From assembly GCF_900106055.1 (NCBI RefSeq), contig NZ_LT629792.1:2170001-2234000 (forward strand): DNA of 64,000 nt, in the 5' to 3' direction. This DNA is from Schaalia radingae (GTDB lineage: Bacteria; Actinomycetota; Actinomycetes; Actinomycetales; Actinomycetaceae). Position 1 is the first letter of the stretch. Each line of letters opens with the position of its first letter. The translations under genes and the position numbers were made by a program. Under the pieces are notes generated by a model, which was given only the letters and a program-made list of their open reading frames with translations, was not told the DNA's origin and did no database searches. Shown piece by piece: positions 8,695 through 27,397 of this stretch.

Positions 8695-9972
8695 CTACTC
8701 GTCAATCGACGGCGCGTGCTCCAGGAGGTATTCTTCAGCCTGCTTGTTCCACAGACCGTTGTTCGCCTTGCACAGGCGATCCAGCTCCGCATAGAACGGA
8801 TCCGTCTTACCGCGCTCAGCGAAGTCGTCAATTGCGACCAGATCCAGCCTCTTGTGGGTGTAGATCAGCTTCTTGCCACCGGGAATGTTCGGCAGATTCA
8901 GCGTCGTTTCCTCGACCACGTTCAGACCACCGATGTGGGTGACCAGGACAGCCGGGTTCAGCTTGCCTGATTCAAACATATCGATCGCATCAGCGACGTC
9001 CTCGTACGTGCCACCGGTTGTGGCCACGTAGTGGTGACCTGAGTAGTGGATATCGTAGAAGTTGATCGTCGCCTCAAAATCGTTACGCGGCGGGCCGGCG
9101 AAGAAGTTCATGCAGCCTTCGCGAGCCAGCAGCTTCGAGCCGAGCTCCACGACCGGACGCACCGGAGCGAACACGAAGACGTCATCAAACAGTTCGCCCT
9201 CGTTGATCTTTGTCAGCTCCGCGACCGGATCCTCCATGTCGCCGGTGTTGACGTAGTGAAGCTCGATGCCGTTCTTCTTCGCATCTTCAACGGTCAGCAG
9301 CGCGGCTGCACGATCGAGGCGATCCTGTGCAATGTCGGTGACGACGATACGGCGCGGCTTGCGCTCCTGATGCAGTGCCACGTCCAGGCCGGCCAGTCCC
9401 ATCGGGCCGACGGATGCGAGCATGGCCAGTGTGCCGCCCTCGCGAATACCCATGTAGTGCGTGTAGTCGTTCGGCTTCATGTGGTACTGCGCCTTGAATG
9501 CGCCGATGACGCACGAGTACGGCTCGGTCAGGGAGCCGGTGAAGAAGCTGTCTTCCTTGTATTCGAACAGGCAGTTGGACTCCATGACCTCACTGGGGAT
9601 CACGACGTAGGTCGCGTCGCCGCCGATGTACTGGTAGGAGTATCCCGGTGCCCACAGTGTTCCCTTGTAGTTCAGGGCGGGCTGGATGGCGAACTTCATG
9701 CCGGGTGTGAACTGGTCAGCCCACTTGGAGCCGACCTTCTTGATCGTTCCGCAAAATTCGTGCCCGACCATTGTCGGGGTTTCCGCCAGCGATCCGCGCA
9801 CGCGTTTGTGCGCCTCGCCCTGGTGTGCGAGCTTGTTGGTGGACATGCAGATCGAGTCTGACGTGACTTCAGCGAGGATTTCGTCCTCACCGATTTCAGG
9901 CAGGTCGAACGTTTCCAGGCGGAGGTCCTCCACTCCGTGGATACGCACTGCAGTTGTTGTCTGAGTGGACAT
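8695..9972 (-). CDS. Zinc-dependent sugar-phosphate dehydrogenase, SorE-like
   Basis: 425 aa medium-chain dehydrogenase. It closely resembles L-sorbose-1-phosphate reductase (SorE): LRLETFDLPEIGEDEIL near the start, the metal-site region TMVGHEFCG (about residue 68), ATYVVIPSEVM, GSLTEPYSCVIGAF, and the nucleotide-binding ASVGPMGLAGLD (about residue 190). SorE interconverts a ketose 1-phosphate and a hexitol 6-phosphate with NAD(P)H. It is the last gene of the operon, 31 bases after the SDR gene. In sorbose loci SorE works with a sorbitol-6-phosphate dehydrogenase, and the pairing here with an SDR repeats that logic. The true substrate is unknown; a 6-deoxyhexulose phosphate from the adjacent fucose genes is a candidate. 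Confidence 0.82.
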   Translation of the reverse strand: MSTQTTTAVRIHGVEDLRLETFDLPEIGEDEILAEVTSDSICMSTNKLAHQGEAHKRVRGSLAETPTMVGHEFCGTIKKVGSKWADQFTPGMKFAIQPALNYKGTLWAPGYSYQYIGGDATYVVIPSEVMESNCLFEYKEDSFFTGSLTEPYSCVIGAFKAQYHMKPNDYTHYMGIREGGTLAMLASVGPMGLAGLDVALHQERKPRRIVVTDIAQDRLDRAAALLTVEDAKKNGIELHYVNTGDMEDPVAELTKINEGELFDDVFVFAPVRPVVELGSKLLAREGCMNFFAGPPRNDFEATINFYDIHYSGHHYVATTGGTYEDVADAIDMFESGKLNPAVLVTHIGGLNVVEETTLNLPNIPGGKKLIYTHKRLDLVAIDDFAERGKTDPFYAELDRLCKANNGLWNKQAEEYLLEHAPSIDE

Positions 9973-10003
9973 TGAAATGTGTTCCTTTCGGCCTGTGGCC
10001 CTG

Positions 10004-11044
10004 TTAATTCATCATGACCTGACCGCCGGTGACGGGCACCGCCTGGCCAGTTTCATAGGCTTGCTCAACGATGTAGTAGATGGCGCGCAAAACGTCGATG
10101 CCCTGTGCGCCGCGGTGCATCGGCACCTTCGCTTCGTAGTATTCCTTCACATCGGCAACGGTCTTCGCGCCTGGCACCTTCCCTGAGTTGAGGTACTGGA
10201 CGAACAGTCCGCGATCAGGGTCTGACCACAGTGGTCCGTCGAGGAAGTTGCCCGGGCACACAGCGTTGACTTTGATGCCGTGGGCGACCAGTTCGAGGGC
10301 GAAGGACTGCACCAGTCCGAGGCCACCGAACTTCGACCCGGCATAGGCGGCGTTCTTGTTGGATCCTTCCAGGCCGGACTTGGAGTTGACCTGGATGATG
10401 TCAGTCAGCCACTGGGGTGCAGCCTTGTGCTGGCGGGCCAGAAGATTGCCGCACGCCTGAGTGACCAGGAAGAACGCAATGTAGTTGATGTTCGTGGACA
10501 GGCGGAATGCGGACGGGTCCTGCGTCAGGACGCTTCCTGCGCGCACGATTCCGGCGTTGGAGACCACCAGGTCAAGCCCGCCGGCCACGCGCTCAATTTC
10601 CTCAGCCATCGCTGCCACTGATTCCTCGTTGGACACGTCTACCGTGATCGGCCATGCGTGTTCGCCGAGTTCTTCGGCCTTGGCGCGGGCGCCTTCTTCG
10701 TTGAGGTCAGCAATGAAAACGAAGCAGCCCTGGTCGATCAGACCGCGTGCGATTTCAGCACCGAAGCCCTGCGCGCCGCCCGTTACGACGGCAATCCTGC
10801 CGGAGATCTCGCGTTCACCGCGTTTACCTGTTTCGGTGACCTCGAAGATGTCCTCTCCGCATCTGACGGTGACCGGTAGGTTCACGCCGCCCAGAAGCTC
10901 GTTCACCTCCGAGTCATTCATCTGGATCAGGCTGTCTTCGTCTGCAGGCAGCGTGATCGTTGCTTCCTTGCCGCTGCGGCTGACCAGAACCGGTCGACCT
11001 AGTGCGCGCAGAAACACTCCGCGCACGATAGGTGCAACGCTCAT
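10004..11044 (-). CDS. SDR-family sugar-phosphate dehydrogenase, SrlD/SorD-like
   Basis: 346 aa. Residues ~1-85 form an extra N-terminal domain; the Rossmann core starts RIAVVTGGAQGFG (about residue 84) and includes VSNAG, the catalytic Ser in IQVNSKSG and the Y-x3-K pair in YAGSKFG. The C-terminal half (NAVCPGNFLDGPLWSDPDRGLF) matches sorbitol-6-phosphate 2-dehydrogenases, which are usually ~260 aa, so the N-terminal extension is unusual. It lies between the PHP gene and the SorE-like gene in the operon. Together the two dehydrogenases could move a keto group along a sugar-phosphate chain (inference). Confidence 0.8.
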   Translation of the reverse strand: MSVAPIVRGVFLRALGRPVLVSRSGKEATITLPADEDSLIQMNDSEVNELLGGVNLPVTVRCGEDIFEVTETGKRGEREISGRIAVVTGGAQGFGAEIARGLIDQGCFVFIADLNEEGARAKAEELGEHAWPITVDVSNEESVAAMAEEIERVAGGLDLVVSNAGIVRAGSVLTQDPSAFRLSTNINYIAFFLVTQACGNLLARQHKAAPQWLTDIIQVNSKSGLEGSNKNAAYAGSKFGGLGLVQSFALELVAHGIKVNAVCPGNFLDGPLWSDPDRGLFVQYLNSGKVPGAKTVADVKEYYEAKVPMHRGAQGIDVLRAIYYIVEQAYETGQAVPVTGGQVMMN

Positions 11045-11087
11045 CTTTCATTCCTCCACATCACTTGGGTCTTGGGTAAGCCTGTGA

Positions 11088-12401
11088 TCACGCCGTCAGG
11101 CGTGAAGCTATGTCCTCGGCGGGCGTCCCGTCGGCGTATTCGCGGCCAAGCGGCGCGTATTGTTCGATGCGGGCCGCCAGGTCCTGCGGGCTCAGTCGAC
11201 CTGATCCCAGCAGGTGCAGCTGCGGGTCCACACTGGTGAGTGCTTCGTGCGCCACGAGTGCCCAGGTCGCCTGGTTGAGTCCGGCAAATTCCTCTCTGCG
11301 CAGCTCAGGGCAGTTGAAGGATTGGCGCGGCTGGTTGATGTCCACACCGGAGATTTCCAGCATGCCGTGCTGCGTGGCCAGTTCATGAATCCGGGCAAGC
11401 TGCTCATCGGTATTGCGTGGCGGCATGTAGGTCACTGCCCTGAACCCGCGTTCCTCCAAAGCTTTGAACAGCTCATCAAGGAAGGAGTCTTCAAACTTCT
11501 CCGCCTTCTTGTCTCCTGTCGGTGAGGCTGACACGTCTCCCAGGTAAGCGTAGGTCGCGATCGCGCCGATCGAATCAGCAAAGGCGACGACCTCGCGGGC
11601 GGTCGGGCATTCCTCGTGAGAAGGCTGAATGTAGATCTGCTGCAGGTATTCAGATTTGAGCAGGCCGAGCAGGTCGTACATCAGGTACGGATTGGCCTCG
11701 TCTCCCAGTCGATCGACGAGGGGGGCCGGCACCTCCACATTCATGGTCGCCAAGCCGTCAAGCAGAGCCTGTCCCTTGCCGAAACCGTTGATCAGTGCGC
11801 GCGCCATCGCTGCAAGCAAGTGGCGTTCCGTGATTCCGCCGCCGTTGGCATATTGGGAGTGACCCACCATGTCGCGCTGTGGATCGAAGGGAGTCAGATT
11901 CAGGCCGGCCAAAATCTTGTTGGCACGTTCGGCCATTTCGAGGGTGCGCTGCAGGCGTGCCACTCGCTTGGGTGCAAGCCACTGATCGGCCTTTTCACGG
12001 GACGGCGCCGGAACTCCCTGGACGGTCAGGTAGGCCATACCCGCTGAATCGGGGTTGTTGAGTTTGCGCGATGCAAACGGGCCGTCGGGCGTATCGTCGA
12101 AGAACGCGCGGATTTCAAAGCCGGTCACCGAACCCATCGACAGGATACGGCAAGCCTCGCTCATTTCCGGGGCGGCAGCGATCGAGTCGTGGTCAACGGA
12201 CCCAACAACCCGCAGCCCTGCCTGCCTGGCTCGCAGTGCAGCATGGGTCGGTGTGTACGGGCTGAAGGAGTAGCACGTGTGGATGTGGTTGTTGGATTCT
12301 GGCGCCCACGCAGGGAACGTGAAGTGTGCGGCGCCCTCACGCAAAGCATCGAGGCGTTCACTCTGAGTGAGGCTGACATCGTTAGTAACTGGAACGCTCA
12401 T
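11088..12401 (-). CDS. PHP-domain metal-dependent hydrolase
   Basis: 437 aa. PHP motifs are visible: HIHTCYSFSPYTP (HxH, about residue 35) and VGSVDHDSI (about residue 62), with later conserved acids and His (IQPSHEECPTAREVV; SGVDINQP). PHP proteins hydrolyse phosphoesters with a multi-metal centre. The frame is open further upstream to 12638 but that would overlap the E1 gene; the ATG at 12401 has GAGGAAAT just before it and begins where homology begins. A 14-bp hairpin separates it from E1. Its place among sugar-phosphate genes suggests a phosphatase or lactonase-like step; the substrate is unknown. Confidence 0.78.
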   Translation of the reverse strand: MSVPVTNDVSLTQSERLDALREGAAHFTFPAWAPESNNHIHTCYSFSPYTPTHAALRARQAGLRVVGSVDHDSIAAAPEMSEACRILSMGSVTGFEIRAFFDDTPDGPFASRKLNNPDSAGMAYLTVQGVPAPSREKADQWLAPKRVARLQRTLEMAERANKILAGLNLTPFDPQRDMVGHSQYANGGGITERHLLAAMARALINGFGKGQALLDGLATMNVEVPAPLVDRLGDEANPYLMYDLLGLLKSEYLQQIYIQPSHEECPTAREVVAFADSIGAIATYAYLGDVSASPTGDKKAEKFEDSFLDELFKALEERGFRAVTYMPPRNTDEQLARIHELATQHGMLEISGVDINQPRQSFNCPELRREEFAGLNQATWALVAHEALTSVDPQLHLLGSGRLSPQDLAARIEQYAPLGREYADGTPAEDIASRLTA

Positions 12402-12497
12402 ATTTCCTCTGCTGGGTTCGTTGTCGGCCAGGTGCTCACGGCATCGCTCAGTGAGCACCGTGGCCGTTGGATATGTTGTGGCTGCGGGTGGGATACG

Positions 12498-12535: not shown

Positions 12536-12540
12536 ATGTC

Positions 12541-15033: not shown

Positions 15034-16413
15034 TCAGGCTTTGACAGCCCAGGCAGCTTCGCGGATGAGTTCAGATACTGTCGGGTGCGGGACGACAAGC
15101 TGACGCAGGTCGTCCAGTGTCAGTTCGGTTTCGAGGACGGCGCATGCGCCCCAGATCATCTCGGATGCGTATGTGCCCAACACGTGAATGCCGAGGACGT
15201 GGTTCGTCTCAGCATCCACAATCACTTTGGCGCTGCCGGGTGCTTTGAAGCCGTTCTCAGCGATGAACCGGCCGGACATCTGGCCAGGCACGGACCCGAC
15301 CTTAATGGCGCGTCCCTCAGCCTTGGCCTTCGATTCGGTCAGTCCCACACCGGCTGCTTCCGGCAGGCAATACACAGCCCATGGGATCGTGTTCCAGCGC
15401 ATCACCTGTCCACGCTTGTAGGCCTGGTCATCCAGGATGTTCGCCGCCACGACCTCGCCCATGCGGTATGCAGCGTGCGCCAGCAGGGAACGACCCGTCA
15501 CATCACCGATGGCCCACACGTTGGGAAGGTTCGTGCGCAGGCGGTCATCAACCGTTATGCCGCGGCGCCCGATGTCAAGTCCGGATTCTTCAGCTCCCCA
15601 GCCGCGCGTGGCTGGGCGACGACCCACCGCCATGAGAACCAGGTCGGCCTCCACCGTGTGCTTCTGGCCATCCTTGGAGAAGACGACGTTCGATCCTTCG
15701 ACCGCCTCCACCTTGCAGCCGAGGTTGAAGGTGATGGCGGGCATCGCCTTGCGCAGCTGAGCTGCCATGTCGTCATCCATAAAGGGCAGGATCTCGTCCA
15801 TCATTTCGACGACGGTCACTTCACTGCCCAGGCTGGAGAACAACGAGGCGAACTCCACGCCGATGACACCGCCACCGATGACGGCCAGTCGTTTCGGCAC
15901 GTCGGAGATAGATAACAGTCCGGTGGAATCCACGACCTTTTCGTTGTCGGCGCTGCCCGGGATGGGCGGCATCGCAGGAACTGAACCGGTCGCGATGATG
16001 ACGTGTTCAGCGGTGTAGTGCGTGTCATCCACGCGTACCTTGCCGGGGCCTTCGAAGTAGCCACGCCCGTACACGACGGTGCAGCCGGCTTTCTTGACGC
16101 TGGCTCCCACGCCTCCGACCAGACCTTTGACGACCTGGCCCTTCCACTTTTGCATCGCTTCCCAGTCATAGGAGGCACCCTCGATCCCCACGCCGTAGGC
16201 GCCGGCCTCACTCGCGTGCACGTAGTGCTTCGCGGAGTTCAGCAGGGTCTTGGTGGGGATACATCCCACCGTCAGGCATGTGCCGCCGAGATCTTTCTCC
16301 TCGATCAGCAGGACTTTCTTGCCGCCGTTGCCGAGGCGTTCGGCTGCAAGATATCCGCCCGGGCCTCCGCCCAGTACGATGACGTCGAATTTTGTCTCTG
16401 TCATGGCGCTCAT
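15034..16413 (-). CDS. lpdA: Dihydrolipoyl dehydrogenase (E3)
   Basis: 459 aa flavoprotein that reoxidises dihydrolipoyl groups of E2 with NAD+. It has the FAD-binding VIVLGGGPGGYLAA, the redox disulfide GGTCLTVGC (Cys46-Cys51), a second nucleotide-binding GGGVIGVEF, and the C-terminal HPTVSE His-Glu pair. Its ATG overlaps the E2 stop by four bases (ATGA), showing translational coupling; an ATG three codons later is possible. E1 follows 42 bases downstream. A dedicated E3 in this operon suggests the complex assembles independently of the cell's main pyruvate dehydrogenase. Confidence 0.93.
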   Translation of the reverse strand: MSAMTETKFDVIVLGGGPGGYLAAERLGNGGKKVLLIEEKDLGGTCLTVGCIPTKTLLNSAKHYVHASEAGAYGVGIEGASYDWEAMQKWKGQVVKGLVGGVGASVKKAGCTVVYGRGYFEGPGKVRVDDTHYTAEHVIIATGSVPAMPPIPGSADNEKVVDSTGLLSISDVPKRLAVIGGGVIGVEFASLFSSLGSEVTVVEMMDEILPFMDDDMAAQLRKAMPAITFNLGCKVEAVEGSNVVFSKDGQKHTVEADLVLMAVGRRPATRGWGAEESGLDIGRRGITVDDRLRTNLPNVWAIGDVTGRSLLAHAAYRMGEVVAANILDDQAYKRGQVMRWNTIPWAVYCLPEAAGVGLTESKAKAEGRAIKVGSVPGQMSGRFIAENGFKAPGSAKVIVDAETNHVLGIHVLGTYASEMIWGACAVLETELTLDDLRQLVVPHPTVSELIREAAWAVKA

Positions 16414-17759
16414 CCCAATACTGTCAGGTCGATGTTTTCGATGGCGTTGACCAGGTCGCGCAGGAATCGCGCTGCGTCAGCACCATCAATCACCTGGTGG
16501 TCAGCGGTCAGCGAGAAGCCGATCCTCTTTTCCACCACAACATTTCCGTCATTGTCGAGGGCGGCCCGCGGCGTCACAGCTGCCACGCCCAGGATCGCGA
16601 CCTGCGGACGGTTGATGATCGGTGTGAAGGTCTCCACGCCGAACGATCCCAGATTCGTCACGGTGAAGGTGCCGCCGTTGAGCAGGTCGGGGCTGATAGT
16701 GCCGTCAATCGAATCACCAGCCACCTGCTTGGAGGCAGCGGAGAATTCCTTCAGGTTCATGGCGTTGGCTCCGCGGATCACCGGGACCAGCAGGCCGCGC
16801 GGAGTATCGACGGCCACCCCGAGGTGAATGTTCTGGAACTTCGTGTAGGTGCCGTCAGCCAGATGCGCGTTGAATGTCGGGTACTTCGCGATCGTCTTGA
16901 CGACTGCGTATCCGACCAGGTCACCGATCGTAATGGCATTGACGCCCAGTGATTCGTCGGCCTGCTTGAAACGCTTGCGCATGGCCATGAGCTTGTCGGC
17001 CTTCGCGCTGACCGTGTAGGACAGCTGAGCGGTTTCGGCCAGGGACTCCATCATGCGCGTGGCGACAACCTTGCGGATGCCCTTCAACGGTGCCGCTTCG
17101 GAGGGGCCAGGGAAGTCGGCGTTGGCACTGATCAGCGGCGCTGCGGCTGCCTCGTCGGCTGCAGGGGAAGCCAGGTCGGCGGTCGTGACGCGTCCACCCA
17201 GTCCGGTTCCAGTTCCGGTTGCGCCCTGGGCACGAGCTGCGTTGGTGGCAGGGTTCTCGGCAAGATAGGCCTTTACATCGCGTTCGAGCACGCGTCCGTG
17301 GGGGCCGGATCCTTCGGACACTGCCGACGGGTCCAGTCCTTCACTGTCGGCCAGTGCGCGGGCGCGAGGCGAAATCGCTCCGCCGGATGCTGCCGTCTGG
17401 AACGAGGGCGCCTCAGGCTTTTCTTCTTCAGCGGGTGCTTCCTGTTCGGGAGCACTGGCGGCTTCGTTGGAGTCACCGGAAACACCGGCCTGCGCGAGAA
17501 CTTCCTCGCTGATCTCTTCGCCAGGCTCGCCCAGGATCAGCAAGGGATCCTTGACGGGGACTTCGTCACCGACTTCCCACAGAAGTTTGAGGACTGTGCC
17601 GGCATCGGTACTGGGCACGTCCATTGTTGCTTTGTCCGTCTCAATTGAGCACAGCACCTGGTCAACGGCGACCGTGTCGCCAACGGAGACCTCCCACTCG
17701 TTGATCAAGCAGGACTCCACTGAGTTACCCAGTTGGGGCATCACCACGATGGTGGCCAT
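16410..17759 (-). CDS. Dihydrolipoamide acyltransferase (E2)
   Basis: 449 aa. It has an N-terminal lipoyl domain with the lipoyl-lysine in ETDKATMDVPS (Lys43), an Ala/Pro/Glu-rich linker, a peripheral subunit-binding domain (ISPRARALADSEGLD, about residue 125), a second linker, and a C-terminal acyltransferase domain with the catalytic His in DHQVIDGADAARFL (about residue 421). It receives the acyl group from E1 and passes it to CoA. The gene starts 11 bases after the DeoR gene and overlaps E3. Acyl specificity is not visible; acetyl is the usual case. Confidence 0.92.
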   Translation of the reverse strand: MATIVVMPQLGNSVESCLINEWEVSVGDTVAVDQVLCSIETDKATMDVPSTDAGTVLKLLWEVGDEVPVKDPLLILGEPGEEISEEVLAQAGVSGDSNEAASAPEQEAPAEEEKPEAPSFQTAASGGAISPRARALADSEGLDPSAVSEGSGPHGRVLERDVKAYLAENPATNAARAQGATGTGTGLGGRVTTADLASPAADEAAAAPLISANADFPGPSEAAPLKGIRKVVATRMMESLAETAQLSYTVSAKADKLMAMRKRFKQADESLGVNAITIGDLVGYAVVKTIAKYPTFNAHLADGTYTKFQNIHLGVAVDTPRGLLVPVIRGANAMNLKEFSAASKQVAGDSIDGTISPDLLNGGTFTVTNLGSFGVETFTPIINRPQVAILGVAAVTPRAALDNDGNVVVEKRIGFSLTADHQVIDGADAARFLRDLVNAIENIDLTVLG

Positions 17760-17770: not shown

Positions 17771-18523
17771 TTACACCGCGCGAACGCGGGTGTGTTCTTC
17801 CAATTCCTTCATCGAGTCCGCCGTGAGGTCATCATCGGTAATGATCCCCGTGACGTCATCAAGTCCCATGAAACTGACAAATCCGCTCTTTCCGTATTTC
17901 GACGAATCTGCCAGCAGCCACGTCTCTTCTGCACGCGCCCTCATCAAGGTGGCGACTTCTCCGCCTTCAACCAGCTGAGTTGTCAGACCACGCTCGACTG
18001 TGAATCCGTCCGTCCCCAGGAACGCGATGCGTGCATTGAACGAGTTAATTGAGCGTTCCGCCAGCGGTCCGGTCAGCGATTCTGATTCAGCGCGGAACTG
18101 GCCACCCGTCAGCGTGATGTTGAGCTGTGGATTCGAGCGAGCGTTGGCGAAAACAAGCACCGAGTTGGTGACAATCTGCACGCCGCGTTTTCCGGCCAGG
18201 TGCCGAACGATCATCGCACAGGTCGTGCCCGCTTCAATCATGATGCGGTCGTTGTCCCTGACCATCGCTGCCGCTGCACGCACGATGCGCTCTTTTGCGT
18301 CGACGCGATCCATCTGGCGCAGTCGAATATTGCGGAACGCGGTCGGACGCGCACCGCCGTGCGTCCTGACCAGGTAGCCGTCTTCTTCGAGCTGTTTGAG
18401 GGTGGATCGGACGGTAACTGGAGAGACATCGAGCTCAACGGCAAGAGTGCTCACAGAGACTTCACCCTCAGCCGCCAGCTGGTCGAGAATGAAGCTGTTA
18501 CGCTCGTGTTGCGCTCTCGTCAT
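17771..18523 (-). CDS. DeoR-family transcriptional regulator
   Basis: 250 aa. The N-terminal winged helix (residues 1-57) includes STLAVELDVSPVTVRSTLKQLEEDGYLVRTHGGA, the DeoR pattern, and the sugar-phosphate sensor domain has the expected VTNSVLVFANA and TDGFTVERGLTT motifs. DeoR proteins usually repress sugar-catabolic operons until a phosphorylated sugar binds. It is the first gene of the seven-gene dehydrogenase operon, so autoregulation is likely. An inverted repeat, TTTCGATT...AATCGAAA, lies just upstream (18541-18581). The sensor suggests that the pathway substrate is phosphorylated. Confidence 0.88.
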   Translation of the reverse strand: MTRAQHERNSFILDQLAAEGEVSVSTLAVELDVSPVTVRSTLKQLEEDGYLVRTHGGARPTAFRNIRLRQMDRVDAKERIVRAAAAMVRDNDRIMIEAGTTCAMIVRHLAGKRGVQIVTNSVLVFANARSNPQLNITLTGGQFRAESESLTGPLAERSINSFNARIAFLGTDGFTVERGLTTQLVEGGEVATLMRARAEETWLLADSSKYGKSGFVSFMGLDDVTGIITDDDLTADSMKELEEHTRVRAV

Positions 18524-18798: not shown

Positions 18799-19230
18799 CT
18801 ACTCACCAGGCTGGCGCACGCCGATTGTCAGCAGCAAGTTCGCGTACAGGCGCTGATCGCCCGTCGCCACAATAATGCCGACATCCTCACTTCGAGCCGC
18901 GTCGTAGAACTTGAAGCGCGGAATCTCACCGAATTCCACATCCAGCAAAGCTGCCTTGTAGTCGGCGTGAGCCGGAATGTCAATCGTGTCCTGATCATCC
19001 TCAGGCACCATGATCTCCGCTTTTTCAATCGGGATCGTGCGCTTGAGAACTTCGAGGATCTCGTTGACGCCCAGCAAGCCGGGCGCAAGGTTGAGGGAGA
19101 TCAGTTCGCAGCGCTCGTTCACGCCGGTGGTGTGCGGGTAGTTACCATCGGCCAGCAAGATCTTCGAGCCGTGTCCGGCTGCGGCAAGTGCGCGTAGGAA
19201 CGCGGGGTGAGTCATAGGTCCGTACAGCAT
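18799..19230 (-). CDS. fucU: L-fucose mutarotase, RbsD/FucU family
   Basis: 143 aa, the normal family length. It has the RbsD/FucU pattern: HPAFLRALAAAGHGSKILLADGNYP near the N-terminus, with the catalytic His in GHG and Asp in ADGNYP, and a C-terminal ATGDQRLYANLLLTIGV. It interconverts sugar anomers so the isomerase receives its preferred form. The ATG at 19230 has AAAGGA eight bases upstream; a longer open frame above it is only the shadow of lacI. It follows the LacI gene by 13 bases, the last gene of the fucose cluster. Confidence 0.88.
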   Translation of the reverse strand: MLYGPMTHPAFLRALAAAGHGSKILLADGNYPHTTGVNERCELISLNLAPGLLGVNEILEVLKRTIPIEKAEIMVPEDDQDTIDIPAHADYKAALLDVEFGEIPRFKFYDAARSEDVGIIVATGDQRLYANLLLTIGVRQPGE

Positions 19231-19243
19231 CAGTGGTGTCCTT

Positions 19244-20305
19244 TCATTCGTAGTGAGTGACAATTTGGGAGCTGGTCCGAATGACCAGTTCGGGGGGAAT
19301 GATGAAGTCCTGCGGTGGGCGTCCGGCAATGAGGTCGACGATCTGACGAATCGCCGTGCGGCCCACCCGGTCAAAGGGCTGTCGAATAGTTGTGAGCGGC
19401 GGCGAGAAGCACTGCGCGCCCGCCTCATCGTCAAAACCGACCACGCGGGTGTCGTGGGGGAGCTCTCCGCCGAGCTCGCGAACGGCGCGCATGGCGCCCA
19501 GCGCAATCTGGTCGTTGGATGCGACGATTCCCTGAGGGATGCGCCCCATGCTGTAGGTGGCATCGAATCCGTCCACCGCATTCCACGAGCCACATTCGAT
19601 GATCTCGACATTTAAAGAGGCGTCGGACTGCGCACACGCTTCTTCGAATCCCTTGCGCCGCTGATGTGCGTCGTTCCAGCTTGCCGGCCCCATCAGGTGA
19701 ACGATGTCAGTGACTCCGCCACGCAGCAGATGGTCGGTGGCGACTCGTGAGCCCAGCACGTTATCGACAGAGACGGTCGATACGCCATCGATAGTCGTTT
19801 CCGATGACAGCAGCAGCGTCGTCGGCGTTGTGCGAGCCAGCTTCATCGCCATTTCGATGACGGGGTCCTGACCGCCCAGAATGACGATTCCGTCGACTCG
19901 AAATGGGATCGCGTTACTGGTGACGTGCCCGTCAGACATGTAGACATTCGAAATCGACACGCTCAGACCGGCATCGCTGGCAGCGTTGAGCACATGCAGC
20001 AACGTCTGGCCGTGCCCGTGGAACATCGGCGCCGCCATCAGCACATGGATGACCCCTGTACGCTTGCCGGCAAGAGCCCTGGCCGCATAGTTCGGCCGGT
20101 ACCCCATCTCGTGGAGCAGCGCGGTGATATTCGCTCGTGTGGAATCTGCGACTTCAGGGTCGCCTCGTACCACGCGCGAGACCGTGTTGGCTGACACGCC
20201 GGCATGGCGCGCCACGTCTGCGAGCGAGACTCGCTTGTTCTTCGCGGGTGGTCCGTTCTTAACGCGCAGAGGGTTCGTGGACACGGGTCTTCGCTGTCGT
20301 TGCAA
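19244..20305 (-). CDS. LacI-family transcriptional regulator of fucose genes
   Basis: Up to 353 aa. The N-terminal helix-turn-helix reads VSLADVARHAGVSANTVSRVVRG, followed by the LacI hinge (YRPNYAARALAG) and a periplasmic-binding-protein-like sensor domain. The TTG at 20305 overlaps the end of the kinase gene by 47 bases; a GTG at 20284 gives a smaller overlap and is equally possible. Lying between kinase and mutarotase, it should control fucose uptake and catabolism. The two palindromes at the head of the cluster (27451-27464 and 27622-27633) have the even symmetric form that LacI proteins bind. Confidence 0.9.
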   Translation of the reverse strand: MQRQRRPVSTNPLRVKNGPPAKNKRVSLADVARHAGVSANTVSRVVRGDPEVADSTRANITALLHEMGYRPNYAARALAGKRTGVIHVLMAAPMFHGHGQTLLHVLNAASDAGLSVSISNVYMSDGHVTSNAIPFRVDGIVILGGQDPVIEMAMKLARTTPTTLLLSSETTIDGVSTVSVDNVLGSRVATDHLLRGGVTDIVHLMGPASWNDAHQRRKGFEEACAQSDASLNVEIIECGSWNAVDGFDATYSMGRIPQGIVASNDQIALGAMRAVRELGGELPHDTRVVGFDDEAGAQCFSPPLTTIRQPFDRVGRTAIRQIVDLIAGRPPQDFIIPPELVIRTSSQIVTHYE

Positions 20306-21665
20306 TGATGTGGGGCCTGTCGCCTGAAGCGATGTTCCCCATTATTTCCAGTTGCGCGATGAGGGAGCCCAGGATCGACGCTTCGATCGGGCCGGCCACG
20401 ACACGCAGCTGAGCGGCCTGCGCGGTCAGATCACACAGAAGGTGGTTGCGCGCGCCACCTCCTACCAGGTTGAGTTGGTCGGGCCTGCTTCCAGCGATCT
20501 GCGCCAGCTCGTCAATGCCGCGCGCATAACGCTGGGCAAAGGATTCAATGACCAGTCGTACGTACTCGGGCTTCGTCGAGGGAGGCTCACCGCCGGCTTC
20601 CCGAATCACGGTGTCGATCTTTTCAACCATTTCACCGGGTTCGGCAAAACGGGAGTCATCCGGGTCAAACAGATGTGCGGACGGGGCGCATGTGCGCGCA
20701 GCGGCCACCAATTCGTCGGTGTCGGTCGGCATCCCTTCGCGCTCCCACTGACGCTGGAGTTCCTGCAGGATCCACATGCCGGTGATGTTGAACAGCGGAC
20801 GAACTCCTCCGTCACTGCGTGATTCATTGGTCAGGCCCAGTTTGAATGCTGCGTCAGTGAGCAGCGGGCGGTCCAGCATGCCGCCGAGCACGGACCATGA
20901 TCCGCAGGACAGGAAGTACGCTTTGACGCCTTCTTCGACAGGCAGGCCGTGGACTGCACATGCCGTATCGTGTGCGCCGCCGCGCACCACCGTGAGCGAT
21001 TCAAGCCCTTCGACCGTGCACGGGCCGACTGTGGTGAGGTCATCGTTGAGATCACCAACCCATGAACGGGGAAGACCAAGGCGTGAAAAGACCGTGTCTG
21101 ACCAGCGTGGCGAACCAGGTTCGCACAGTCCTGAGCTGGAGCAGATAGAACGAGACCAGCCTTTGACGCCGGACAGTTTCCACGCGAAGTAATCAGGCAG
21201 AAGCAGAACCGTGTCGATGTGCTCAGCCAGTTCCGGTTCTTCGCGGGTCAGTGCAACGAGCTGGTTTGCGGTGTTGATGGTGGCTGGAGCGATTCCCGTC
21301 AGATGAAAGAATTCTTCATCATCAATGCGTTGACGGAATTGTTCCAATGTGCGTGCCGTGCGCTCATCGCGGTAGGCGCGTGGTGGGCCAACAGGATGAT
21401 CGTCGCTGTCCAGCGCGACGAAGTCGACGCCCCAGGTATCCACAGATACGGATTGTGCGTCGGGATATTCCTGGACGGCTTTCTGCAGACCTTCAACGGT
21501 TTGATCCCACAAACGCTCCAGGTCCCACACCAGTGAGCCGTCACGTCGGATCGCTTCATGTGAGAACCGATGCACCTCGTGGATCTCAATATGGTCGCCT
21601 TCCAAGCGTCCTGCAACAACGCGGCCTGACGACGACCCTAAATCGACAGCAAGCGCAGTGGTCAT
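20259..21665 (-). CDS. fucK: FGGY sugar kinase (fuculokinase/rhamnulokinase type)
   Basis: 468 aa. ATPase-fold motifs are present: ALAVDLGSSSGRVVAG at the N-terminus, SVDTWGVDFVALD, the conserved GGAHDTACAV, SCGSWSVLG, and the C-terminal NLVGGGARNHLLCDLTAQ. The overall pattern is nearest to rhamnulokinase (RhaB); with FucI beside it the likely product is L-fuculose 1-phosphate. The ATG at 21665 has AAGGACG before it; the open frame upstream is not needed. It lies downstream of fucI across a 154-base gap with a strong hairpin. Rhamnulose or another ketose is possible as substrate. Confidence 0.88.
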   Translation of the reverse strand: MTTALAVDLGSSSGRVVAGRLEGDHIEIHEVHRFSHEAIRRDGSLVWDLERLWDQTVEGLQKAVQEYPDAQSVSVDTWGVDFVALDSDDHPVGPPRAYRDERTARTLEQFRQRIDDEEFFHLTGIAPATINTANQLVALTREEPELAEHIDTVLLLPDYFAWKLSGVKGWSRSICSSSGLCEPGSPRWSDTVFSRLGLPRSWVGDLNDDLTTVGPCTVEGLESLTVVRGGAHDTACAVHGLPVEEGVKAYFLSCGSWSVLGGMLDRPLLTDAAFKLGLTNESRSDGGVRPLFNITGMWILQELQRQWEREGMPTDTDELVAAARTCAPSAHLFDPDDSRFAEPGEMVEKIDTVIREAGGEPPSTKPEYVRLVIESFAQRYARGIDELAQIAGSRPDQLNLVGGGARNHLLCDLTAQAAQLRVVAGPIEASILGSLIAQLEIMGNIASGDRPHIIATTAKTRVHEPSAR

Positions 21666-21819: not shown

Positions 21820-23586
21820 TCAGCGGTACAGCGGTCCGAAGTTCTTGCAGGCACGGTAGTCCGCGCCTTCAACGTCGGCTGTTCCGAACAGTGTCCATGC
21901 GCGCGGACGGAAGATATCATCTTCCGGCACGTTATGCATGTTAACCGGGATACGGAGCATGGAGGCCAGCGTGATGAGCTGAGCGCCAATATGTCCGTAT
22001 GAGATTGCACCGTGGTTGGCGCCCCAGTTATTCATCACGTCGTAGACGGAGGCAAAGGCCCCCTCGCCGGTCAGACGCGGTGCGAACCAGGTGGTCGGCC
22101 ATGCCGGGTCGGTGCGCTGCTCAATGGTTGTGGCGACTTCGTCGGGCAGATCAATGGTCCAGCCTTCAGCGATCTGCAGAACCGGGCCCTGTCCGTAGAC
22201 AAGGTTGATACGGCACATCGTCACGGGCATTTCGCCGCTGGTGCGGAAGTGGGTTGACCACCCACCACCGGGGAAGTATTCGTACCCTGAGGGGTGGAAG
22301 GTTGTTGCCTCAAGGGCTGCCTTCTGGTCCTCTTCGGTTACTTCCCACCACGGCTTGATGACAGGCTTGCCGTCACGGGTGGCCTTGCCGGCACCATCCA
22401 GTGTGGTCGAGCCGGAGTTGCGCAGATCCAGGAAGCCGTCCTTTGCGTGTCCTTCCAGCTCATAGCCGGTGACTCGCTTGACCGATTCCGGGCTCCAGTA
22501 GGTGCGCACGTCGGAGAAGATCTGCGGGGTGTTGGTCAGCAGATATCCGAACAGCATGGATGCACCGTTCAGGGAGTCATTTTCGGTTGCGACAACTCCG
22601 ACTGGCTGACGTGCGCCGTTCCAGTCAAAGTTGGTGTTGAGGACAGTTTCCATGACGTCGCCGTTGGGCATGCCGTCTGTCCACTGACGCTGTCCCTGGA
22701 ATCCGGCTGCGATTGCACCATGGCCGCCGGCTTCTTCGGCCCATCCCTTTTCTGCCAGCTTGGGGTTGCCTTTCATCAGGTCGTGGCCGATCAGCACCAT
22801 CTTGGCACAGGTTTCCCACCAATCTTCATGGCGCTCGGGATGCTGGTTCTTTTCCGGGTTGTAGTCCTTTCCGATGGTGAAGTTTTCCTTCATCCACTTC
22901 AGGGCCTTTTCGTACTCTTCTTCGTCGTAGATCTTCTCGTTGATACGGCGGTAGAACTCGGACATATCGATGTACTCATTGCGCATGCCAAGGTAGGGGC
23001 CGAAGAATTCGTCCTTGACCGTTGATCCGGCAATGCCCATGGCAACCGAGCCCATCGACAGGTATGCTTCACCGCGCATCTGTGCCACAGCCAGACCTGC
23101 CTTCGCAAAGTCGAGCAGACGGCCACGCACGTCATCGGGGATGGTCTCGTCGTCAGCATCCTGGACCTGCTTACCGTAGATGCCGAATGCCGGGAAGCCG
23201 AGTTGTGCGTGTCCTGCCAGTGCAGCGGCAAGGTAGACGGCGCCTGGACGCTCTGTGCCGTTGAAGCCCCAGATTGCGTGCGGGGTACGGGTGTCCATCT
23301 GCAGGGTTTCTGTGCCGTAGCACCAGCACGGGGTCACCGAGACAGTCAGACCAACGTTTTCAGTGTCGAATTTCTTCTGGCATGCGATGGCTTCGGAAAC
23401 GCCACCAATGGTGGTGTCAGCGATGATGCATTTCACAGGTTCACCATCGATGTAGTGTAGTTCGTCCGTGTACAGCTTCGCCAGACGCTGAGCCATGCCC
23501 ATTGTCTGATCTTCGAGGCTTTCACGCACTCCCCTGCGACGTCCATCGATAATTGGTCGGATGCCGATCTTGGGGTGTTCAGCCAT
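21820..23586 (-). CDS. fucI: L-fucose isomerase
   Basis: 588 aa, against 591 in E. coli. It interconverts L-fucose and L-fuculose using Mn2+. Family blocks are unmistakable: [37 protein letters not shown], the metal-ligand Glu in GDVMETVLN and Asp in [23 protein letters not shown], and the metal-ligand His region [18 protein letters not shown]. It begins a sub-block isomerase-kinase-regulator-mutarotase downstream of the ABC transporter. D-arabinose is a common alternative substrate of this family. Confidence 0.97.
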
Positions 23587-23702
23587 GTTTCCTCATTCCT
23601 TCATTGGTTTCGTTTGTCTTAGTTGGTCCCCTGCGTGGCAGTAAGGACGGTGACGTTCGGCCGAAGCGTCACGTCACTATTATGTCCCGTTGGTCAGGAG
23701 GT

Positions 23703-23737
23703 GGTGGAGGGGGATCAACGGGTTCTCCCCCTCCACC
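23703..23737 (-). terminator. Hairpin between transporter and fucI
   Basis: GGTGGAGGGGGA (23703-23714) pairs with 23726-23737, loop 11 bases. It lies 28 bases after the stop of the binding-protein gene. Such a hairpin commonly keeps binding-protein message abundant while letting some transcription through to the next gene. Confidence 0.6.
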
Positions 23738-23764
23738 TGGGCTATTATCCGGTGGGATGTGAAA

Positions 23765-24784
23765 TCACTCGTAGAGGTTGGCCTTAATGTCAGGATCGTC
23801 CATATTGGTCTTGTCATACCAGGCGAAACCGGAGTCAATGATCTTGGGCAGTTCTTCACCCTTGATGGCTGCAATTGCAGCCTTGACAGTTTCGTATCCC
23901 ATCTTGACTGGAGCCTGAGTCACAGCGCCGGCCTGCACGCCGCTGCGAACGGATTCGAGCTGTGCCTTACCGGAGTCGATACCAACCATCTGAACCTTGC
24001 CGGCGTTGCCGGATTCGGTCACACCCTGCATCGTGCCGATGGCTGATGCTTCGTTCGTTGCGCCAATACCTACAACATCCGGGTTGGCAGTCAGAATGCT
24101 CTTGGCAACGTCAGCTGCCACACCGACCTCGCCGCCGATCTGGGGATCGAGCAGTTCGATGTCAGGTTCATTCTCAGCCATGTATTCCTGGTATCCGGCG
24201 CAGCGGTCCTTACCGGTCTGGGAGGTGTCATCGTGGCAGACCAGAGCAACCTTGCCCTTGTGGCCCACGAGTTCCGCCAGGTGCTTGGCGGCTTCAGCGG
24301 CAGCGGCCTTGTTGTCCGTCTGAACGGTTGTCACCGGAATGTCGGACTCAACGCCGGAGTCGAATGCGACCACCGGAATGTTGGCGGCCTTGATCTGCTC
24401 GAGGATCGGGGCGGCAGCTTCTGAATCCAGTGCTGCAAATCCGATTGCAGCAGGCTTGGTGTCCAGTGCGGTCTGGAGCTGCTGGAGCTGCTCAGTGATG
24501 GCTTGCTCGTTGGCGGGTCCGATGAATTCAACCTTGTAGCCGAATTCTTCACCTGCCTGCATTGCGCCTTCCTTCACTGCCTGCCAGAAGCGGTGCTGGA
24601 AGCCTTTCGAGACGAGGTAGATGGTTTCACCGCTGGCAGCACCGCCGGCGCTTTCACCGCTCTGTGTTGCACCGGCGTCGCCGGAAGCGGCGTTTGTGTC
24701 GCCGCCGCCTGATGAGCAAGCGGTCATTCCCAATGCCATTGCCCCAGCGGCAATGAGGCTCACGATACGTCCAATTGGGCGCAT
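23765..24784 (-). CDS. Sugar ABC transporter substrate-binding lipoprotein
   Basis: 339 aa. Signal peptide MRPIGRIVSLIAAGAMALGMTAC places the lipidated cysteine at residue 23, followed by a Ser/Gly-rich linker. The mature part is a type 1 periplasmic-binding fold of the RbsB class: TIYLVSKGFQHRFWQAVKEGAMQ, VAFDSGVESD, VGIGATNEASAIG and VGIDSGKAQ. The ATG at 24784 is preceded by AAAGGA; an upstream extension in the same frame lacks signal-peptide character. It is third in the transporter operon after ATPase and permease. L-fucose is inferred from downstream fucI. Confidence 0.92.
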   Translation of the reverse strand: MRPIGRIVSLIAAGAMALGMTACSSGGGDTNAASGDAGATQSGESAGGAASGETIYLVSKGFQHRFWQAVKEGAMQAGEEFGYKVEFIGPANEQAITEQLQQLQTALDTKPAAIGFAALDSEAAAPILEQIKAANIPVVAFDSGVESDIPVTTVQTDNKAAAAEAAKHLAELVGHKGKVALVCHDDTSQTGKDRCAGYQEYMAENEPDIELLDPQIGGEVGVAADVAKSILTANPDVVGIGATNEASAIGTMQGVTESGNAGKVQMVGIDSGKAQLESVRSGVQAGAVTQAPVKMGYETVKAAIAAIKGEELPKIIDSGFAWYDKTNMDDPDIKANLYE

Positions 24785-24860
24785 TGCTGTTCCTTTCTTT
24801 CGGGCGAAGGTCTTTCTTCGCCGTTGTGGTGGTTGGACGGTTGTCCGATTCAAGTAATGC

Positions 24861-25883
24861 TTACACTGCCTGAGCACGGGCTCGGCGGACGTTATCGATA
24901 AAGACTGCCAGCAGGATGACCAGGCCGGTCACCACGAGCTGCCATTCCTTTGCAACACCCATCATCTGCAGACCTGTCGTCAGAGTGTTCATCAGCAGCG
25001 CACCAATGAACGTACCGATGATTGTGGCGCGACCACCGGCAAGTGAGGTACCGCCGATGACGACCGCTGCGATTGCCTGCAACTCGAGTCCGAGACCTTC
25101 AGCAGGTTGTGCGAATCCGAATCGTGCTGAGTACAGAATGCCGCCGATGGCCGTGAAGATACCGGCTGCGATGTACACCATCAAGGTCCAGAAGCGCACG
25201 TTCACGCCTGACAGGCGTGTGGCTTCGATGTTCGATCCCATCGACAGCGCGTAGCGGCCCAGGACCGTGCGCGTCAGCAGGATCGATGCGATGACAGTCA
25301 AGATAATGAAGATCAACGCTGCGTTGGGCAGGGAGCCGATCAGTTTGCCGTTCGACAGGTTGTAGTAGAACGGCGAGGGGATCTTGATCGAGCTCTTACC
25401 CGACAGAATCAGTGACAGACCGTTGGCTGCCATCATCATGGCCAGTGTGGCGATGAAGGGAGGAATACCCAGGAACGCCACGTTAAACCCGTTGACCAGT
25501 CCGATCACTGCGCCGACCACCAGGACGAGCAGCAAGCCGATACCGACGGGCAGCCCGAGGTATCCGGATTCGGGTGAGCCCATCAGCAGACCTGCCGACA
25601 CTGCTGTCAGCGTCATGCCGGTGCCCACTGACAGGTCGATGCCGCCGGTGGCGATGATGAACGTTGCACCCAGCGCCATGACGCCGATTGCAGAAGCTGC
25701 CATCAGGACGTTCATGAACACGCCAATGGATGCGAAGTTCGGGGCTGCGAACAGGAAGTAAATGTAAATCAGGATCAGTGCAGCGAATGCGAAAAGCTGC
25801 TGAATTGATGACTTCAGGAAAGTCACGACTTTGCTGTTGGACTTTTCTGACGCTTGGTCTTTCGTTTCAACCTCGGTGCTCAC
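24861..25883 (-). CDS. Sugar ABC transporter permease, RbsC-like
   Basis: 340 aa integral membrane protein with about eight to ten spans. It has the RbsC-family motifs ATFIIATGGIDLSVGTGMTL and the EAA-like cytoplasmic loop IAAVVIGGTSLAGGRATIIGTFIGALL near residues 265-295. Its start overlaps the stop of the ATPase gene by four bases. It belongs to the CUT2 class of pentose and deoxyhexose importers, in which one ATPase gene carries two nucleotide-binding domains. Confidence 0.93.
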   Translation of the reverse strand: MSTEVETKDQASEKSNSKVVTFLKSSIQQLFAFAALILIYIYFLFAAPNFASIGVFMNVLMAASAIGVMALGATFIIATGGIDLSVGTGMTLTAVSAGLLMGSPESGYLGLPVGIGLLLVLVVGAVIGLVNGFNVAFLGIPPFIATLAMMMAANGLSLILSGKSSIKIPSPFYYNLSNGKLIGSLPNAALIFIILTVIASILLTRTVLGRYALSMGSNIEATRLSGVNVRFWTLMVYIAAGIFTAIGGILYSARFGFAQPAEGLGLELQAIAAVVIGGTSLAGGRATIIGTFIGALLMNTLTTGLQMMGVAKEWQLVVTGLVILLAVFIDNVRRARAQAV

Positions 25884-27397
25884 GCGTCCACTCCCATTGC
25901 TTGCTCTTGGCCAACGGTGGCCAGTTCCATGATCTTTTCTTGGGTGGCTTCCTCGTTATCGAGGATGCCGATAATGCGGCCCTGTGCCATCACTGCGATG
26001 CGGTTCGACAGGCGCAGTACTTCGGGCAGTTCCGATGAAATCACAACGATTGCCTTGCCTTGCGCCGCGAGGTTTTCCAGCAGTTGATAGATCTCTTCTT
26101 TTGCGCCCACGTCGATACCGCGTGTTGGCTCATCGAAGATCAAGACATCACTGTCTCGAACCAACCACTTGGCAATAACAACTTTCTGCTGGTTACCACC
26201 AGACAGGTTCAACAGGGTCTGATTGATTGAAGGGGTGCGAATCCGCAATTTGTCCACATAGTCGAGTGCGGTCCTGCGGATCTTGCGATCGTCGACAAAG
26301 CCCGCTTTCGCATAGTCCTTCATGTCGGCCAGCGTGACGTTGGCTTTCACGTCAGCATCCAGCAGGATTCCGAAGCGTTTACGGTCTTCGGACAGGTAGC
26401 CGATACCGTTCGTCACCCCGTCTTTGGCGTTCGTAATCCTGACCTTCTTGCCGTGCACGTAAATGTCACCTTCGGTGCGCGGATCAGCACCGAAGACGCA
26501 TCGCGCCACTTCGGTGCGACCTGCACCCATCAGACCGGCGAATCCGAAAATCTCACCCTTCTTCACGTCGAAGCTCACGTTCTTGATGAGATTCTTCGTG
26601 GACAGGTTCTTGACTTCCAGAACAGTTTCGTCTGTCTGCGGCTTCGTGACGGGACGGACGTCAGACTTCAGTTTGCGTCCCACCATCATGGAGATGATTT
26701 CCTGCATCTCCACTTCAGCCGTGTTCACCGTGCCGACGTATTCACCGTCGCGCAGAACGACCACGCGGTCCGTAATCTGCTTGATTTCAGGCATACGGTG
26801 CGAGATGTATATCAGACCGGTTGACGGCGTGACGAAGTCGTGGATCAGGTCAAACAGTGCGTCCGTTTCTTCGATCGTCAACGCCGCAGTCGGCTCATCC
26901 ATAATGAGAATGTCTGCGTTATACGACAGCGCTCGGGCGATTTCCACCATCTGGAGGCGCGCCACTGACAGGTCGCGACAGTAAGCCTTGGGGTTGATAT
27001 CCATCTTCAGATGATCGAAAAGCTCCTGAGCATCCTTGTTCAGTTTCTTGTCATTGACGATCCCGGCTCTAGTGGAGCCTGGGCGCCCCAGGTACAGATT
27101 CTGGGCAACCGTCAGGTCGGGAACGATGTTGAGTTCCTGGTGAATGATGGCCAGGCCAAGGTCACGTGCGTGGTTGATGCCCGTCACGTGGACCTTTTCG
27201 CCCTTGATCCAAATCTCGCCGCCTGGATCAGGCTGATAAATACCGGTCAGGACCTTCATCAGCGTCGACTTTCCGGCACCGTTTTCACCGCAAAGCCCCA
27301 GCACTTCTCCTGCTCGAAGATCCAAATTGACATTCGATAGTGCTTTGACGCCCGGAAAGGTCTTCGACATACCTTTCAAGTCGAGCAAATGTGTCAC
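25880..27397 (-). CDS. Sugar ABC transporter ATP-binding protein (two NBDs)
   Basis: 505 aa with two ATPase domains, as in RbsA/MglA. The first has Walker A GENGAGKSTLMKVL (about residue 38), signature LSVARLQMVEIARAL (degenerate Q/signature region) and Walker B ILIMDEPTAAL. The second has a degenerate Walker A (GLMGAGRTEVARCV), signature LSGGNQQKVVIAKWL and Walker B VLIFDEPTRGID. It is the first gene of the transporter and fucose cluster, with AAGGGGTG before the ATG. Expression is probably controlled by the two palindromes in the 370-base upstream gap. Confidence 0.94.
   Translation of the reverse strand: MTHLLDLKGMSKTFPGVKALSNVNLDLRAGEVLGLCGENGAGKSTLMKVLTGIYQPDPGGEIWIKGEKVHVTGINHARDLGLAIIHQELNIVPDLTVAQNLYLGRPGSTRAGIVNDKKLNKDAQELFDHLKMDINPKAYCRDLSVARLQMVEIARALSYNADILIMDEPTAALTIEETDALFDLIHDFVTPSTGLIYISHRMPEIKQITDRVVVLRDGEYVGTVNTAEVEMQEIISMMVGRKLKSDVRPVTKPQTDETVLEVKNLSTKNLIKNVSFDVKKGEIFGFAGLMGAGRTEVARCVFGADPRTEGDIYVHGKKVRITNAKDGVTNGIGYLSEDRKRFGILLDADVKANVTLADMKDYAKAGFVDDRKIRRTALDYVDKLRIRTPSINQTLLNLSGGNQQKVVIAKWLVRDSDVLIFDEPTRGIDVGAKEEIYQLLENLAAQGKAIVVISSELPEVLRLSNRIAVMAQGRIIGILDNEEATQEKIMELATVGQEQAMGVDA

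Follow-up and report, generated by a model that had tools for sequence, protein, structure and literature searches.

In the present study, we examined a 64,000-nucleotide stretch of DNA from Schaalia radingae (hereafter, the window; positions 2170001-2234000 of a one-contig genome of 2.43 Mb, handle G000). On its minus strand, at 8695..27397, a set of L-fucose genes is followed by an operon encoding a lipoyl dehydrogenase complex (E1-E2-E3). Judging from sequence comparisons, the two operons probably form a single L-fucose catabolic pathway, in which the operon carrying the dehydrogenase component E1 (the E1 operon) stands in for fuculose-1-phosphate aldolase (FucA). The preliminary description of this DNA had listed L-fucose isomerase (FucI), a kinase, FucU, and an ATP-binding cassette (ABC) importer; all are present on the minus strand and belong to the expected families. 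It had also placed an operon with a DeoR regulator, an E1-E2-E3 complex, a PHP protein, and two dehydrogenases directly downstream on the same strand, which was confirmed; the gene order is DeoR, E2, E3, E1, PHP, a short-chain dehydrogenase/reductase (SDR), and a zinc-dependent medium-chain dehydrogenase/reductase (MDR). Its statement that FucA and the fuconate genes are missing from the locus was borne out: no aldolase or fuconate gene was found in 8695-27397, although fuconate and lactaldehyde genes were not searched for genome-wide.

Probable replacement of the fucI-linked aldolase in Actinomycetaceae

Two hundred genomes of the family Actinomycetaceae were searched for E1 and FucI (PF07881). 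In the genus of the window (35 genomes), fucI and E1 occur together in 26 genomes and neither occurs in nine (the E1 match of G589 is partial). The co-occurrence of the two operons in other genomes, which the preliminary description had suggested examining, is thus perfect within this genus. Outside the genus, G398 carries both, adjacent to each other, 22 genomes carry fucI without E1, and five carry E1 without fucI above the family cut-off. Thirty E1 loci were fetched; 25 of them contain both operons, each time in the order of the window (L074 is cut off by the end of its contig, and additional sequence separates the operons in L068). Since this adjacency is kept in 25 of 25 fetched relatives, we do not regard it as a product of chance.

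In the family, E1 and a fucI-linked class II aldolase (PF00596) are mutually exclusive. A class II aldolase match is present in 22 of the 22 family genomes with fucI and without E1, and 21 of them have it at no more than 5 kb from fucI (the exception is G488; the match in G569 is partial). In the 25 genus members with both genes (G589 was left out), the contig bearing fucI shows no class II aldolase match up to 100 kb from this gene. In G398, which belongs to another genus and carries both, a class II aldolase lies 15 kb from fucI. Ten of the 31 E1-positive genomes have no PF00596 match at all: three of the genus g170 and seven of the genus of the window, six of which are at least 99% complete (G570, G546, G478, G459, G435, and G539; G591 is 70% complete). 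Among the remaining 18 genus members, five have one AraD-type match (four assigned by BLAST, and the single match of G495, L097, by score alone), 12 have a putative RhaE-like aldolase, and G000 has a set of its own. This distribution strongly supports the replacement of the fucI-linked aldolase in the family by the E1 operon.

A fucA gene elsewhere in the genome of the window would, according to the preliminary description, speak against this replacement. It was searched for and none was found, in the window or in the genome; the search covered class II and not class I aldolases. Four class II aldolase genes are present, none of them near fucI. L001 was read as AraD from its sequence, and L003 and L004 are identical Ald2-like genes within a methylthioadenosine/nucleoside salvage operon (MtnP, MtnA, and a nucleoside importer, named by eye). 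This Ald2-like gene was set aside as a stand-in for FucA because the other 30 E1-positive genomes yielded no match closely related to it.

Two local observations concern these aldolases. L002 (931-3521) encodes a 388-amino-acid class II aldolase beside a gene that resembles glutamate-semialdehyde aminotransferase by eye. The MtnP-MtnA-Ald2 operon lies in an exact tandem duplication outside the window (L040, G000:C1 1733000-1752900) with an offset of 12,461 bp and at least 7,440 identical bp, which transposase-like open reading frames, recognized by eye, adjoin.

The E1 operon is also found with other isomerases in this family. In L089, RhaI (TIGR02635, 622.9 bits, above the cut-off), a gene that resembles RhaM by eye, a kinase of the rhamnulokinase type, PHP, an aldolase-SDR, MDR, DeoR, E2, E3, and E1 form one run. 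The clusters of the genus g170 and of G439 contain an isomerase only distantly like FucI (PF02952, 1.8e-7 for L235). The proteins of approximately 550 amino acids encoded in such E1 clusters (L235 4834-6477 and L090 1678-3333) may represent a new family of sugar isomerases. The loci L129 and L130 (G398 and G439) combine a GntR-type regulator and an importer with a RhaEW-like protein and with aldolases of class I (LsrF-like by eye) and class II.

The same module in Bacteroidales

E1 was detected in 35 of 247 Bacteroidales genomes (E <=1e-100, some as fragments), and the full-length matches are 57-62% identical. RhaA (PF06134) is present in 30 of the 35 E1-positive genomes versus 27 of the 212 E1-negative genomes, and FucI (PF07881) in 25 versus 29, with one of the 29 below the family cut-off. 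At least one of fucI and rhaA accompanies E1 in 34 of 35 genomes, compared with 45 of 212 genomes without E1 (Fisher 1e-18; the genomes are not phylogenetically independent).

E1 loci were read in 26 of these 35 genomes, and in 22 of the loci E1 is linked to a PHP gene as well as to an SDR gene; the exceptions are L152 and L155, with the complex only, and L154 and L209, which meet contig ends. An MDR gene is linked in 20 (it is missing from the stretches L152, L155, L209, L161, L162, and L170), and aldo-keto reductase (AKR), MtlD-like, or HAD genes occur in nine. In G831, FucI-FucK-FucU-FucP adjoin E2-E3-E1-PHP-SDR-HAD-MDR (FucK, FucU, and FucP were identified by eye and weak similarity), and the genome has no PF00596 match. 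The complex lies near RhaA, RhaT, and kinase genes in G593, G736, G823, G724, and G600.

A RhaE-type aldolase, fused or separate, is present in 18 of 18 genomes with RhaA versus two of four without it (a hand tally of the 22 Bacteroidales in which an E1-linked SDR was read). In rhamnose users, either an aldolase branch may run beside the E1 module or the domain may have another role, such as C4 epimerization.

The E1-E2-E3 complex and its relatives

E1, E2, and E3 of the window all have intact active-site motifs, and the thiamine pyrophosphate (TPP) motif is kept in 55 of 56 E1 sequences. Against curated pyruvate dehydrogenase models, E1 scored 240.5 of 321 and 177.2 of 393.85 bits, and E2 scored 274.9 of 722 and 254.7 of 445 bits. 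Neither E1 nor E2 reaches the cut-off of any curated model that it matches, those of pyruvate dehydrogenase included; E3 passes its own cut-off. The E2 of the window is of the classical type and not an alpha/beta-hydrolase acetyltransferase of the AcoC type.

The E1 of the window is 81% identical to proteins labelled Schaalia turicensis and Pauljensenia. Among the sequences aligned, it belongs to a separate group with at least 50% identity to it, and the next relatives are at about 31-38%. A search of 296 genomes of the class (E <=1e-100) returned only the genome of the window and G208, an actinobacterium of another family, in which a sugar importer, a PfkB-type kinase, and a protein with a glyoxalase fold accompany E2-E1-E3 (L127 4013-13440). 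The sugar used through this G208 locus may be a 1-deoxyketose from the outset. Of 401 plasmid records, the best 16 (Rhizobium, Agrobacterium, and Pleomorphomonas) are 51-52% identical, and the next are at about 31%.

In the three plasmid loci read from these genera (L245, L246, and L247), the lipoyl domain is separate, and the complex includes an alpha/beta-hydrolase protein, the best NCBIfam match of which is the acetoin dehydrogenase acetyltransferase NF011457 (152.9, 159.1, and 202.1 bits; cut-off 307). Sugar kinases and sugar importers lie nearby, and the Rhizobium locus adds a gene resembling a ketose epimerase. The AcoC-like acetyltransferase was met only in these three rhizobial-type loci among those read. 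The E1 family extends beyond the fucose and rhamnose clusters, as the rhizobial and G208 loci reveal. From their gene content, these loci suggest that the acetyl group comes from a sugar whose end is acetoin-like, and the acetoin-like cleavage by E1 proposed in the preliminary description gains independent support from the combination of the AcoC-like acetyltransferase and sugar kinases in the rhizobial loci.

The two dehydrogenases

The solved structure nearest to the SDR is sorbitol-6-phosphate dehydrogenase 5o3z (3.9e-42; the runner-up is at 1e-26). The NCBIfam model SrlD gave 201.9 of 307 bits, which is below its cut-off, yet it is the best among 212 families. The segment NSKSG, common to the SDR of the window and 5o3z, is kept in 48 of the 48 SDRs of our set and in neither of two RhaEW-like controls from the same bacterial family. 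A second motif, K[VI]P[ML]x[RK]G, occurs in only 25 of the 48 and was not used as evidence. The SDR of the window has no Aldolase_II match; only a stretch of approximately 80 amino acids precedes its SDR domain, and alignment matches this stretch to the C-terminal portion of the aldolase moiety in the aldolase-SDR fusions.

The SrlD-like label of the preliminary description is supported by 5o3z and NSKSG. Its SorE-like label for the MDR, which we presume to be appropriate, is confirmed by no curated model: the best NCBIfam match is IolM (62.8 bits; cut-off 450), and the best PDB match is sorbitol dehydrogenase (7e-13). In the loci compared by slot (L061-L085), the MDRs of the window and G398 are of one type, and 23 of the 24 other genus loci have an MDR of approximately 535 amino acids that is 22-27% identical to that of the window (the slot is cut off in L074). 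The filling of one slot by two distantly related MDR types is a non-orthologous displacement, and we suggest on this basis that the step is needed. Four MDR relatives from outside the family (L036-L039, 42-50%) were set aside because no E1 was found in the 20 kb fetched around them. A pattern scan of genome contigs with the MDR protein returned one locus only (Proteiniphilum, L005).

Proposed pathway

L-Fucose would be isomerized by FucI and phosphorylated by the kinase to L-fuculose 1-phosphate. The MDR would then reduce C2 and the SrlD-like SDR would oxidize C5 of the same molecule, yielding a 1-deoxyketose 6-phosphate, namely 1-deoxy-D-tagatose 6-phosphate if the MDR uses the same face as SorE on L-sorbose 1-phosphate. 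E1-E2-E3 would attack the acetoin-like CH3-CO-CHOH end, and the acetyl group would pass to lipoate and on to coenzyme A (CoA). The tetrose released would be D-threose 4-phosphate; if the MDR uses the other face, it would be L-erythrose 4-phosphate. It may be handled by the PHP protein or, in some Bacteroidales, by HAD phosphatases, the AKR, or the MtlD-like dehydrogenase. The stereochemical claim made earlier, threose or L-erythrose phosphate and not D-erythrose phosphate, was reproduced by carbon bookkeeping. L-Rhamnulose 1-phosphate would give the same tetrose because the old C4 becomes the aldehyde, and this shared product may be why the module is found with rhamnose genes.

The evidence obtained supports the chemistry proposed in the preliminary description, in which the keto group would be relocated by redox steps and the product would be cleaved to acetyl-CoA and a tetrose 4-phosphate. 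We give an even chance to the full proposal, that of a third L-fucose route shared by 6-deoxyhexoses, present in two phyla with E1 relatives in a third: the keto group would walk to C5, the lipoyl complex would release acetyl-CoA and D-threose 4-phosphate, and the erasure of C4 would make fucose and rhamnose converge. The entire E1 family would then be "1-deoxyketose-phosphate dehydrogenases".

AraD, a relative of RhaE, is a C4 epimerase. In rhamnose users, the RhaE-type domain might similarly be a C4 epimerase that converts L-rhamnulose 1-phosphate to L-fuculose 1-phosphate for the SDR, which would be useful because the two hexitols would fit an SrlD-like enzyme differently.

Evidence against the pathway and alternative explanations

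A number of observations weigh against assigning both operons to one L-fucose pathway. The co-occurrence in Actinomycetaceae lies within a single genus and is not phylogenetically independent, and the fucI match is partial in two of the 22 genomes with fucI and without E1 (G569 and G578). A putative RhaE-like aldolase (approximately 370-400 amino acids) is present in 12 of the 25 E1-positive genus genomes, apparently in rhamnose clusters. Seven of these assignments were made by placement beside the aldolase domain of L089 in a tree from which only loci with clear BLAST matches were used (the positions of L096, L097, L211, L214, L218, L222, L225, L226, L228, and L232 were disregarded), and five by score and frame length; the neighbors of the seven genes read are RhaB-like genes or weak rhamnosidase-like matches. 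In Bacteroidales, G762 carries E1 without fucI and without rhaA, and most of the 26 E1 loci read are not adjacent to either gene. The E1 relatives in rhizobia and G208 accompany other sugar genes.

The first alternative concerns the PHP protein within the proposed pathway. Structure-based comparison (Foldseek and VIA-align, applied to this protein only) confirmed the PHP fold of the 432-amino-acid protein; Pfam returned no match, and the label rests on similarity and fold. In the group of the window, the PHP motif residues HxH, D65, H66, and E91, among others, are kept, as compared among relatives and not with a solved structure. H66 (window numbering) is replaced by F in 27 of the 27 PHP proteins of the other group, which comprises those of Bacteroidales and of four Actinomycetaceae of other genera, a further point against the pathway. 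Instead of a tetrose-phosphate phosphatase, the protein may be an isomerase or a regulator of the same pathway, to which we assign somewhat less than even weight. This is consistent with the apparent loss of part of the usual metal motifs, with the fusion of PHP and SDR into a single protein in L087, L088, and L090, and with the co-occurrence of HAD phosphatases and PHP in several operons.

Outside the proposed pathway, the alternative that survives best, although we consider it unlikely, is a hidden aldolase (Ald2, RhaE, or class I). It would split L-fuculose 1-phosphate into dihydroxyacetone phosphate and L-lactaldehyde, the SDR and MDR would process lactaldehyde, and E1 would be a dedicated pyruvate dehydrogenase. 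The Ald2-like gene is present twice in the genome of the window, and both copies might accept L-fuculose 1-phosphate. Furthermore, 16 of the 22 E1-linked SDRs of Bacteroidales and the SDR of one Actinomycetaceae cluster (L089) carry a class II aldolase domain at the N-terminus. The fused domains keep all putative catalytic residues (E98, H112, H114, and H178), as do five stand-alone RhaE-like aldolases. Where the fusion occurs, conventional aldol cleavage appears possible. According to PMC3870299, RhaEW acts on L-rhamnulose 1-phosphate with lactate as the product. This report cautions that the aldolase domains may be active. However, the six near-complete E1-positive genus members and G831 gave no class II aldolase match, in searches that did not include class I, and a fucI-linked aldolase was seen in the family only in genomes without E1, apart from that of G398 at 15 kb. 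The SDR has the motif of sorbitol-6-phosphate dehydrogenase, which is absent from the two RhaEW-like controls. Moreover, the operon has no lactate dehydrogenase, and the phosphatase and polyol-phosphate genes would be left without a role.

A second route through an aldolase, in which the module would cleave some other intermediate that yields acetyl, appears improbable. For instance, lactaldehyde would give methylglyoxal by oxidation, or hydroxyacetone by redox isomerization, and E1 would split this product to acetyl-CoA and a one-carbon unit. The methyl end would become acetyl-CoA in this case also, and the aldolase-containing operons of Bacteroidales would fit. However, the required aldolase meets the same lack of class II genes in the six genus members and G831, and the phosphatases, MtlD-like, and AKR genes would be unexplained. 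The least probable reading is that another sugar is the target of the E1 operon, which would then only be a neighbor of the fucose operon. The E1 operon has its own DeoR regulator, no promoter motif common to both operons was found, and the rhizobial and G208 relatives lie beside other sugar kinases and transporters, but E1 is present in 26 of 26 genus members with fucI versus none of nine without it, the linked aldolase is excluded, and the same coupling recurs in a second phylum.

We retain the interpretation that the two operons form one L-fucose pathway. The interpretation given in the preliminary description was supported for aldolase replacement and co-occurrence, and was incomplete in that some Bacteroidales operons keep an aldolase domain.

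Gene content of the locus

The genes of the locus are summarized in Table 1. FucI matches two solved structures at nearly the same level, D-arabinose isomerase 3a9r (3.9e-275) and L-fucose isomerase 4c21 (3.9e-272). The structures nearest to the kinase are rhamnulokinase 2cgj (1.1e-84) and L-fuculose kinase 4c23 (2e-67). The exact palindrome GTTAGCGCTAAC lies upstream of the importer ATPase gene. A comparison of the promoters of the two operons revealed no common DNA motif; 12-mers were shared in at most one genome each.

Table 1. Genes at the fucose and E1 operons of the window
Feature	Position	Strand	Evidence
Sugar ABC importer ATPase	25880..27397	-	Orthologues in genus loci
ABC permease	24861..25883	-	Orthologues in genus loci
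ABC substrate-binding protein	23765..24784	-	Genus loci; start set by eye
FucI, L-fucose isomerase	21820..23586	-	4c21, 3.9e-272; PF07881, 1.3e-76
FGGY kinase, RhaB/FucK type	20259..21665	-	2cgj, 4c23; start set by eye
LacI-family regulator	19244..20305	-	Family profile matches
FucU/RbsD mutarotase	18799..19233	-	PF05025, 2.6e-26
DeoR-family regulator	17771..18523	-	Family profile matches
E2 acyltransferase with lipoyl and E3-binding domains	16410..17759	-	ETDKA lipoyl lysine, DHQVIDG active site
E3 dihydrolipoyl dehydrogenase	15034..16413	-	469 bits versus curated cut-off of 409; CLTVGCIPTK redox motif
E1, fused alpha-beta TPP-dependent dehydrogenase, 816 aa	12541..14991	-	Below every curated cut-off scored
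PHP-fold metal-dependent phosphoesterase-like protein, 432 aa	11088..12386	-	Start from orthologue comparison
SDR, sorbitol-6-phosphate-dehydrogenase-like	10004..11044	-	Nearest structure 5o3z
Zinc MDR dehydrogenase, SorE-like by name	8695..9972	-	Family match; label SorE without curated support

Significance and comparison with known systems

L-Fucose is a major host-derived sugar. To our knowledge, the proposed lower half of the pathway has no precedent if the chemistry is right, and it would be the first cleavage of a sugar phosphate by a lipoyl dehydrogenase complex. The upper half is known, and the lower half would be new under the same proviso. We found no description of the module or its chemistry in one open-access library; bioRxiv and most subscription papers were outside the scope of this search. 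If the pathway operates as proposed, fucose would yield acetyl-CoA (acetate) and a tetrose or tetritol, not lactaldehyde and propanediol, and predictions of fermentation products and propanediol cross-feeding would change. PMC5583593 describes two L-fucose routes and reports that fuculose-phosphate aldolase is missing in 23 gut genomes of Bacteroidetes, Clostridia, and some Actinobacteria that apparently use this sugar, a gap left unresolved there. The module is one candidate answer to the missing aldolase for Bacteroidales and Actinomycetaceae.

The locus resembles the FucI-FucK-FucA system of the E. coli type in its isomerase, FGGY kinase, and mutarotase, and in the intermediate L-fuculose 1-phosphate. 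However, no FucA was found in the window, and an operon that we infer to perform C5 oxidation and acetyl-CoA-forming cleavage is present instead. RhaEW, as described in PMC3870299, has the domain order of the aldolase-SDR proteins of Bacteroidales. In contrast, the protein of the window lacks the catalytic aldolase half, and its SDR has the motif of sorbitol-6-phosphate dehydrogenase.

The remaining comparisons concern the proposed chemistry. The acetoin dehydrogenase complex (AcoABC-L) similarly combines a TPP-dependent E1 with a lipoyl acetyltransferase, and a conversion of CH3-CO-CHOH-R to acetyl-CoA and an aldehyde is proposed here. However, the proposed substrate is a sugar phosphate, and the E1 of the window belongs to a separate group. 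SorE and SrlD convert L-sorbose 1-phosphate to D-fructose 6-phosphate, and in the proposed pathway reduction at C2 by an MDR and oxidation at C5 by an SDR would likewise shift the keto group along a hexitol phosphate; the substrate here has a methyl end, so that the product would be acetoin-like. Phosphoketolase also depends on TPP and splits a ketose phosphate into an activated acetyl group and an aldose phosphate, whereas the complex described here would use lipoyl/CoA chemistry that conserves NADH, belongs to another protein family, and would act on a 1-deoxyketose.

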